Shown: piece by piece, positions 40,266 through 42,152 of the stretch
Layout: each line of letters opens with the position of its first letter
Numbering within the stretch: the stretch's first letter is position 1
Assembly: GCF_003063475.1 (NCBI RefSeq)
Contig: NZ_NESP01000001.1
Coordinates: 1,426,001 to 1,490,000, forward strand
Reading direction: 5' to 3'
DNA: 64,000 bases
DNA from: Limnohabitans curvus
Lineage (GTDB): Bacteria; Pseudomonadota; Gammaproteobacteria; Burkholderiales; Burkholderiaceae_C
Notes under the pieces: generated by a model
Told to the model about the DNA's origin: nothing
Databases searched by the model: none
The model's input: only the letters and a program-made list of their open reading frames with translations
Made by a program: the position numbers and the translations under genes

Positions 40266-41468
40266 ATGGACGCACACAAACAGGGCGCAGATGCTTTGTT
40301 CATTCTGCTCGGAGCCATCATGGTGCTTGCCATGCATGCAGGTTTCGCATTTTTAGAACTGGGCACCGTTCGCCGCAAAAACCAAGTCAATGCACTGGTA
40401 AAGATTTTGGTGGACTTCTGCGTATCCACCCTTGCCTACTTTGTGGTGGGTTACGGCGTGGCTTATGGCGCAAGCTTCATGATCGGCGCCGAATCGCTGG
40501 CCGACAAAAATGGCTACGAGCTGGTGAAGTTCTTTTTCTTGTTGACATTTGCGGCGGCAATTCCCGCCATCATCTCAGGCGGTATTGCGGAACGCGCCAA
40601 GTTTTGGCCACAACTGATTGCCACCGCCGTCATCGTCGGCTTCGTGTACCCCTTCTTTGAAGGCATTGCTTGGAACCAGCATTTCGGTTTTCAGGCGTGG
40701 CTCAAAGAATTGACCGGTGATGAGTTCCACGACTTTGCGGGCTCTGTGGTGGTTCATGCCGTGGGCGGCTGGATTGCTTTGCCTGCGGTGTTGTTGCTCG
40801 GCGCACGCAGCAACCGCTACCGCAAAGACGGTGCGATTTCTGCACATCCACCATCGAGCATTCCGTTCCTCGCCTTGGGCGCATGGATTTTGATCGTGGG
40901 CTGGTTTGGCTTCAACGTGATGAGCGCACAAACCCTAGACAAAATTTCTGGCCTCGTGGCGGTCAACTCGTTGATGGCCATGGTGGGCGGCACCTTGGTA
41001 GCGCTGATTGCGGGCAAGAACGACCCAGGCTTTGTACACAACGGCCCCTTGGCGGGGTTGGTCGCGGTGTGCGCGGGCTCTGATTTGATGCACCCCATGG
41101 GCGCCTTGGTGGTGGGCGCTGTAGCAGGTGGCATTTTTGTGGTGATGTTCACGCTCACCCAAAACAAGTGGCGCATTGACGATGTGTTGGGTGTGTGGCC
41201 TTTGCACGGCTTGTGCGGCACATGGGGCGGCATTGCCGCAGGCGTTTTTGGCTCGCAAGCGCTCGGTGGTTTGGGCGGCGTCAATCTCACGGCGCAGTTG
41301 GCGGGCACAGCGCTCGGTGTGGTGTGGGCATTGATGGGTGGTTTTGTGGTGTACGGCGTACTGAAGATGACGCTCGGTTTGCGCTTGAGCCAAGAGGAAG
41401 AATTCGAAGGCGCCGACTTGACGATTCACAAGATCACAGCGTCTCCAGACAGAGAAGCCAGCTGGTAA
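40266..41468 (+). CDS. amtB: Ammonium transporter AmtB
   Basis: An inner-membrane ammonium channel of 400 residues, 11 predicted helices and no cleaved signal peptide. The pore twin-His motif is visible as VVVHAVGGW and WPLHGLCGTWGG, and the phenylalanine-gate region and SGGIAERAKFWP match Amt proteins. The C-terminal tail after helix 11 has the short EFEGADLTIHK segment, which in family members contacts PII proteins. No glnK gene is adjacent, unlike the common glnK-amtB pair. An AAGGA site lies upstream of ATG at 40266. Confidence 0.95.
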   Translation: MDAHKQGADALFILLGAIMVLAMHAGFAFLELGTVRRKNQVNALVKILVDFCVSTLAYFVVGYGVAYGASFMIGAESLADKNGYELVKFFFLLTFAAAIPAIISGGIAERAKFWPQLIATAVIVGFVYPFFEGIAWNQHFGFQAWLKELTGDEFHDFAGSVVVHAVGGWIALPAVLLLGARSNRYRKDGAISAHPPSSIPFLALGAWILIVGWFGFNVMSAQTLDKISGLVAVNSLMAMVGGTLVALIAGKNDPGFVHNGPLAGLVAVCAGSDLMHPMGALVVGAVAGGIFVVMFTLTQNKWRIDDVLGVWPLHGLCGTWGGIAAGVFGSQALGGLGGVNLTAQLAGTALGVVWALMGGFVVYGVLKMTLGLRLSQEEEFEGADLTIHKITASPDREASW

Positions 41469-41559
41469 GTCGGCACGATTTGTCGTTTTTCGGGTATGAA
41501 TCCAGTTAAATACAGGTAAACGCTTGGTTATTTAGGTAACTTGTGCTCCATAATGGTCG

Positions 41560-41592
41560 CAACCTTGTGAATGCTCGTCATTGGCAAGGTTG
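41560..41592 (+). promoter_or_regulatory. First stem-loop in the RRM-protein mRNA leader
   Basis: CAACCTTG/CAAGGTTG (8 bp) continues, after a two-base internal loop, into AATG/CATT around a five-base loop. A CATAAT -10-like box at 41549-41554 would start transcription almost at the foot of the stem. Confidence 0.6.
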
Positions 41593-41619
41593 TATTTGGT
41601 GATCGGTCAGTTTCGGTTC

Positions 41620-41658
41620 GGGACTCCATCGCTTTGTTTTTGTGTTTTAAGGAGTCCC
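41620..41658 (+). promoter_or_regulatory. Stem-loop that sequesters the ribosome-binding site of the RRM-protein gene
   Basis: GGGACTCC (41620-41627) is perfectly complementary to GGAGTCCC (41651-41658), which contains the AAGGAG ribosome-binding site five bases or so before the ATG at 41663. The 23-base loop is U-rich. Confidence 0.75.
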
Positions 41659-41662
41659 TTTC

Positions 41663-42103
41663 ATGGGCAATAAACTGTACGTCGGCAATTTGCCGTATTC
41701 GGTACGCGACAGCGATCTTGAGCAGTCTTTCGGACAGTTCGGTTCTGTGACTAGCGCCAAGGTCATGATGGAGCGCGACACTGGCCGCTCTAAAGGTTTT
41801 GGTTTCGTCGAAATGGGCAGCGATGCCGAAGCTTTGGCAGCCGTCGAAGGCATGAACGGCGCCCCTTTGGGTGGTCGTAGCCTCGTGGTGAACGAAGCTC
41901 GCCCAATGGAGCCACGTCCTCCCCGCACCGGCGGTTTCGGTGGTGGTGGTGGCGGCTACGGTGGTGGCGGTCGTGAAGGCGGCGGCGGTGGTGGTGGCGG
42001 CGGTTTCCGTAGCCCCTACGGCGGCGGCGGTGCTGGCGGCGGTCGTCGTGAAGGCGGCGGCGGCGGTGGTCGTGGCGGTTTCGGTGGTGGCAGCAGCTAC
42101 TAA
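41663..42103 (+). CDS. RRM-type RNA-binding protein with glycine-rich tail
   Basis: A 146-residue protein. One RRM domain spans about 3-80 with RNP2 LYVGNL (5-10) and RNP1 KGFGFVEM (44-51), and a Gly/Arg-rich low-complexity tail runs from about 90 to the end (GGGGYGGGG and REGGGG blocks). Similar small RRM proteins in cyanobacteria and proteobacteria bind U-rich RNA and are often cold-induced. The tail is the kind that promotes RNA binding and condensation. The ribosome-binding site is buried in a leader hairpin, so translation is probably controlled. The precise role is unknown. Confidence 0.92.
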   Translation: MGNKLYVGNLPYSVRDSDLEQSFGQFGSVTSAKVMMERDTGRSKGFGFVEMGSDAEALAAVEGMNGAPLGGRSLVVNEARPMEPRPPRTGGFGGGGGGYGGGGREGGGGGGGGGFRSPYGGGGAGGGRREGGGGGGRGGFGGGSSY

Positions 42104-42125: not shown

Positions 42126-42152
42126 AAAAGGCTCCCTTGGGAGCCTTTTTTT
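42126..42152. terminator. Bidirectional intrinsic terminator between the RRM gene and lptC
   Basis: AAAAGGCTCCC-TT-GGGAGCCTTTT with T-runs on both strands. Confidence 0.93.

Follow-up and report, generated by a model that had tools for sequence, protein, structure and literature searches.

The mRNA of a small RRM protein in the window, by which we mean the whole stretch of 64,000 nucleotides analysed here (positions 1426001-1490000 of its contig, in a genome of 3.03 Mb), possesses a leader that, because of its conservation and gene specificity, is very likely a cis-acting control element. For the fuller reading, namely that this conserved leader controls the translation of its own mRNA, we consider the case evenly balanced. 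Autoregulation by the RRM protein would be the best explanation of these features, because the element is found only before RRM genes in the genomes searched, its loop is U-rich and the protein has one RRM with canonical RNP motifs. The preliminary description of this DNA had singled out the leader as a riboregulator candidate that would fall if its complementarity were not conserved in relatives; the complementarity is conserved, and the candidate is now well supported.

The leader appears larger than was first noted: its sequence displays, in this order, a putative -10 box, a 5'-terminal stem-loop, a block conserved in sequence (block A) and the hairpin holding the Shine-Dalgarno site (the SD hairpin, P1; Table 1). 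A sigma-70 promoter in the leader region was not listed by a consensus promoter scan. The gene codes for a protein in which Pfam RRM_1 is recovered as a single RRM (E 7e-22), with LYVGNL and KGFGFVEM as its RNP motifs, which we take to be canonical versions. A protein search of its own genome found no second RRM relative at E<=0.001. Its nearest named relatives come from Acidovorax, Polaromonas, Limnohabitans and Variovorax, and on this ground the genome is placed in the family of the Burkholderiales that holds these genera, the Comamonadaceae. Upstream, in the same orientation, lies a gene for an ammonium transporter. A likely intrinsic terminator, absent from the consensus scan, lies 3' of the RRM gene, which is therefore probably monocistronic. 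The arms of this terminator, GGCUCC/GGAGCC, look like the leader's own anti-SD and SD arms, a similarity that is probably coincidental.

Table 1. The leader, its gene and their surroundings, in window positions.
Feature	Positions	Strand	Description	Basis
Ammonium transporter gene	40266-41468	+	upstream neighbour	
-10-like box	41549-41554	+	CATAAT; predicted transcription start near 41561, inferred from the -10	sequence
5'-terminal stem-loop	41559-41593	+	GCAACCUUGU-G-AAUG(CUCGU)CAUU-G-GCAAGGUUGU	folding, comparison
Block A	41598-41615	+	GGUGAUCGGUCAGUUUCG, sequence-conserved	leader comparison
SD hairpin P1, 5' arm	41620-41627	+	GGGACUCC	sequence, folding, alignment
P1 loop	41628-41650	+	23 nt; AUCGC (41628-41632) near-invariant, remainder U-rich (UGUGUUUU)	
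P1, 3' arm	41651-41658	+	GGAGUCCC; holds GGAG of the SD (AAGGAG, 41649-41654)	
RRM protein gene	41663-42103	+	146 aa, one RRM and a glycine-rich tail	
Likely intrinsic terminator	42126-42152	+	AAAAGGCUCC..GGAGCCUUUUUUU	read from sequence

P1 is a perfect stem of 8 bp with a 23-nt loop, which closes the GGAG of the SD 8 nt upstream of the AUG of the RRM gene. Stem and loop are thus as originally described, but the AAGGAG site is not fully paired as had been stated: only GGAG lies in the stem and the two As fall in the loop. When folded, the 132-nt leader stretch has z = -3.4, with none of 200 shuffles as stable, and the hairpin region alone has z = -2.0, with 7/200 as stable; the predicted energy of the P1 hairpin is -13 kcal/mol. 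Predicted burial of the SD is by itself not rare: among the ORFs of the window (49 taken, 41 scorable, their start codons being uncertain) the SD core is buried in silico (<5% access) in 14. It is similarly buried in 65 of the 91 main-type RRM leaders (p ~1e-5 versus the control ORFs); in RRM leaders outside the main type SD accessibility is no lower than in these ORFs (p = 0.45). What lifts the hairpin above chance is hence its conservation before RRM genes.

A search of the genus with the RRM protein gave matches in 55 of 61 genomes, and from a protein search of genome contigs the best 80 of 185 loci were used. The motif CYCCAUCGC, with at most one substitution, occurs in 95 of the 113 leaders read, one of these occurrences (L065) being spurious and dropped; at loci with two RRM genes it precedes both in 12 of 16. 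Tandem RRM genes with starts 570-656 bases apart were seen in Acidovorax and relatives (L004, L007, L008, L009, L011 and L030), each gene having its own SD hairpin; in most cases the loops are of two types, CAUCGCGUUUU and CAUCGCUUU. For searches at a larger scale we used R1, a covariance model of the SD hairpin including the start codon. In its own genome R1 has one clear match (E 1.8e-14; the next is at E 3.6). Across 120 family genomes, with search filters that lose weak matches, it yields 90 matches (E<=0.1), which place the SD hairpin before RRM genes in 64 of these genomes (from 63 genera): 88 of the 90 lie directly before independently found RRM genes, and RRM frames follow the other two as well, in one case at the end of a contig and in the other in a frame-shifted copy. 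At one locus (L264) a frame-shifted RRM copy, 3' of an apparently intact one, keeps a weakened hairpin.

Since R1 includes the start codon, a start-codon-free pattern was run as well. It finds 112 places: the 58 with a U-rich middle (U >=0.4) are without exception before RRM genes (58/58), and the 54 U-poor matches comprise 5 before RRM genes and 49 elsewhere. Among 200 genomes of the order, R1 gives strong matches in five genomes of the same family and weak ones (20.8-25.3 bits) in three others; a protein search of these three out-of-family genomes found no RRM relative at E<=1e-5, and two weak places that were read, both in one of them, have no RRM frame downstream. In the genomes searched, and leaving aside chance-level matches, the element lies only before RRM genes, and is thereby confined to the protein's own gene in the manner of an autogenous leader.

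The loop is conserved in its own right. Among the hairpins aligned, 80 of 83 distinct ones, U16 and C17 of the loop never vary, while A15, G18 and C19 are each kept in at least 90%. The stretch after AUCGC is 66.3% U, against 23.4% T upstream (86 leaders), which bears out the U-rich loop of the preliminary description; in 86 leaders it varies in length between 15 and 32 nt while both arms persist. An inner loop helix, CGC:GYG, is available in 57% of 116 loops versus 21% in shuffles, mostly through unchanging sequence. Covariation in relatives, originally proposed as a check on the stem, is scant in the main clade: P1 shows 2 double changes in 640 cells, and a tree-simulated G-test scan of 148 leaders gives no significant pair (best pair E ~4.7). 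In the 117 distinct hairpins caught by script, the sixth P1 pair is a C-A mismatch in 22 and the first (outermost) one is lacking in 38; what is conserved is hence in part the sequence rather than the pairing. That sequence seems to be retained alongside pairing suggests that some factor recognises the 5' arm and AUCGC.

Different arms are found in a sister clade. R1 has no match at 62 of 150 listed RRM places; 60 of these were fetched, and many carry GAAGCUCC-ACAUGG together with GGAGCUUC, GGGGCUUC, AGGGCUUC or the like as 3' arm. In the best register, the 43 sister-clade leaders scored form 8/8 pairs in 5 cases, 7/8 in 22 and 5-6/8 in 16, with a mean pairing score of 12.7 versus 6.1 with shuffled 3' regions. 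The best arms of the two clades, GGGACUCC:GGAGUCCC and GAAGCUCC:GGAGCUUC, differ at three pairs on both sides. Swapping arms between the clades has a clear effect one way (17.8 vs 8.4) and a weak one the other way (12.7 vs 11.7). No block A was seen in the sister-clade leaders. A different conserved stretch, approximately CGCCUUCGCUUGAAUGGUUCACGAUGGGUUGAAGCUCCACAUGG and unlike block A, lies upstream of many RRM genes of this clade (L205-L258). Some of the 60 places belong to different paralogues, whose leaders differ too. At L250, L257 and L261 a more distantly related RRM paralogue has a conserved leader of its own, with approximately GGUUUUUUAACCAAGACCGUCA, later CCCGC, and then GAAAGGUCCC or GAAAGAUCCC.

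Upstream of the SD hairpin, comparison agrees with the earlier observation of a further stem-loop near the likely start, which we place just downstream of CATAAT. Among leaders of the genus, its z is below 0 in 30/30 and at or below -2 in 19/30, when folded singly; among 124 leaders outside the genus loci (a set that still includes at least L002 and L003 of the same genus) the mean z is -2.62, with 80 at or below -2 and 3 above 0. The fold of this stem-loop thus appears to be kept, as predicted for each leader, while its sequence diverges. The register that RNAalifold gave for the 5' stem on 12 genus leaders was not trusted, and pair counts on the same MAFFT alignment were mixed, slid versions being higher on several covariation measures and lower on cells paired; the 5' stem was therefore judged by folding each leader alone.

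Of 247 distinct leaders, block A went unrecognised in 88 and was recognised in 159; 138 of the latter have [CTG]ATAAT on the 5' side of the block, and in the remaining 21 the -10 was not recognised. GC precedes block A, giving a GCGGUG-type start, in 84 of 148 leaders. In many other leaders block A is followed, ahead of the SD hairpin, by a block B, GGUUUGUUGAUUGCG or a near variant, that the window's own leader lacks. Among the matches listed, those to block A elsewhere with 0-1 mismatch are all at RRM leaders or at a contig-end copy, and those with up to three mismatches look, by eye and unsummed, about as frequent as in a reversed control. UYGCG repeats in the leader are enriched relative to shuffles, an enrichment confounded by descent.

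Two registers of complementarity link block A and the P1 loop, one of GCGGUG to CAUCGC and one of GGUGAU to AUCGCU. Among 148 leaders 56 have the first only, 56 the second only, 28 both and 8 neither; on inspection, at least two of these eight (L014, L304) show a shorter or shifted complement. In a permutation that keeps relatedness, 9/500 are as good as the observed pairing (55 distinct equal-length rows), a figure that is post hoc and confounded by descent. The window leader alone scores 12 by hand, not above chance (null mean 11.9), and no significant covariation is observed between block A and the loop in the 148 leaders. The sequences are no more than suggestive of a hypothetical H-type pseudoknot in which block A would pair with the P1 loop and close the SD. 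A different pairing, the anti-sequestor AGUUUCG:CGGGACU of block A with the 5' arm, was rejected: 106/500 permutations are as good, and it is not above control.

We propose that the closed hairpin would be the translationally silent state of the mRNA. The RRM protein itself may be the regulator, although this is less certain, by binding the unpaired loop with its AUCGC and U-rich stretch, and possibly block A too; it is the most economical candidate, because no other gene with the element was found. When plentiful, the protein might hold the leader closed, amounting to negative feedback, a direction that is a guess: a hairpin closed by default leaves little room for negative feedback, and one of -13 kcal/mol could alternatively need help to open. 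The 5' stem-loop would probably protect the mRNA end. HuD and Sxl prefer U-rich RNA, and the preference of PUF60 is evident from its name; all three appear further down among the PDB relatives of the RRM protein. Its best PDB match by sequence is a polyadenylate-binding protein, a match that argues for no U preference. More speculative, and in our estimate rather improbable as a whole, is that this is a new class of autoregulatory leader kept across one large Burkholderiales family: the RRM protein would set its own translation by recognising an RNA site composed of loop and block, which might take the form of an H-type pseudoknot closing the SD (GCGGUG of block A paired to CAUCGC of the loop, and a U-rich third loop).

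An alternative that we hold to be unlikely is a temperature-responsive leader, in which heat melting, or refolding in the cold with cold-shock proteins, tunes an RNA chaperone. Cyanobacterial RRM proteins are linked to cold according to PMC9333190, and a 1998 paper, by its title as cited in PMC6091082, deals with the rbpA1 5'-UTR in cold regulation. Among the named organisms listed, the stems predicted to be weakest, at -4.1 to -8.2 kcal/mol, belong to four Polaromonas, two Limnohabitans, Lampropedia, Simplicispira psychrophila and one Paenacidovorax caeni gene. Tibeticola and Tepidicella are thermophiles; the stems of the former are at -10.9 and -11.4 kcal/mol, and the latter was missed by the script and is outside this comparison. 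However, two other Polaromonas (-11.3 and -12.6 kcal/mol) and a Limnohabitans (-12.5 kcal/mol) have strong stems, so that there is no clean trend of stem energy with temperature. The thermo-switch that had been envisaged earlier is, as a matter of simple melting, not supported: the predicted opening of GGAG in the window leader at 4, 37, 42 and 60 C is 0.006%, 0.08%, 0.12% and 0.47%, respectively. The prediction thus has the SD closed throughout this range and counts against passive melting, and no Rfam thermometer matches the leader.

Somewhat less probable still is that another trans factor, such as a small RNA, a cold-shock protein, ribosomal S1 or a ligand, reads the AUCGC loop and block A, with the RRM protein being only the output. 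The conservation of AUCGC does exceed the needs of a stem, and the complementarity of block A and loop is what a ligand-gated or pseudoknotted switch might show; but R1 matches no other gene in the 120 family genomes, which would be unusual for a general regulator. We are more doubtful again of a leader that mainly sets mRNA stability and a fixed level of expression, with the 5' stem-loop acting against 5'-end-dependent decay and the SD hairpin as a constant brake, and no regulated switch: keeping the fold but not the sequence of the 5' stem-loop fits such a purely structural role, whereas the near-invariant AUCGC, the U-rich loop and block A call for sequence-specific recognition. Despite the scant covariation of the main clade and the commonness of SD burial in silico, it is very improbable that this is a chance fold kept by descent, with the upstream conservation reflecting promoter sites at the DNA level or slow drift, given that both arms stay while the loop after AUCGC changes in length, that sequence outside the blocks diverges freely and that the sister clade has different complementary arms.

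Autogenous leaders are known for several families of RNA-binding proteins, including ribosomal proteins. Reported cases are an RbpB site within the rbpB mRNA in Bacteroides (PMC11697453) and feedback through the rne 5'-UTR (PMC10989929); the RRM protein Musashi-1 has reportedly been engineered to repress translation in E. coli. RbpB, Musashi-1 and the Chlorobi-RRM candidate described below are precedents for the proposed control by the RRM protein. Like rbpB, rne and the ribosomal-protein leaders, the leader reported here goes specifically with a gene for an RNA-binding protein and has a structured initiation region; in fold and sequence it differs from them. In RNA thermometers of the fourU and ROSE type, as here, a hairpin upstream of the start codon holds the SD base-paired. 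In fourU elements the SD is faced by a run of U; here, in contrast, it faces GGGACUCC in perfect Watson-Crick pairs, with no U run and no predicted opening in the physiological range. No Rfam family matches in the window at the gathering score, nor in 41450-41700 at E<=5.

The 2010 survey PMC2864571 holds three entries of relevance. For the msiK motif its authors suggest protein feedback, and the ribosome-binding site is on the 3' side of a hairpin, as here; its gene, msiK, codes for a sugar-transporter ATPase, and the structure is another. Chlorobi-RRM (RF01697) is marked 'cis-regulatory: y' in the table of the survey, and the Burkholderiales-1 motif has no Rfam number in that table. The former is, like our leader, a candidate structured cis-regulatory leader preceding RRM-protein genes, for which it is named, but it comes from Chlorobi rather than Burkholderiales, and the score of its covariance model is not reached. 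The meaning of the table column, and the rationale for counting Chlorobi-RRM as a cis-regulatory candidate, are presumed by us. Among the titles and abstract openings listed by literature searches there was no paper on this leader. It is apparently undescribed, though of a known kind, and could be identical with Burkholderiales-1, which we know by its table entry.

RRM proteins are common in eukaryotes; to our knowledge, little is known of the targets and control of their bacterial counterparts. Should another factor prove to be the regulator, this would still be a conserved leader without an Rfam family. The comparison yields consensus parts for the design of tests, and a leader that accompanies its gene in many genera would make a convenient natural RNA target for such a protein and allow autoregulation by a bacterial RRM protein to be put to the test.
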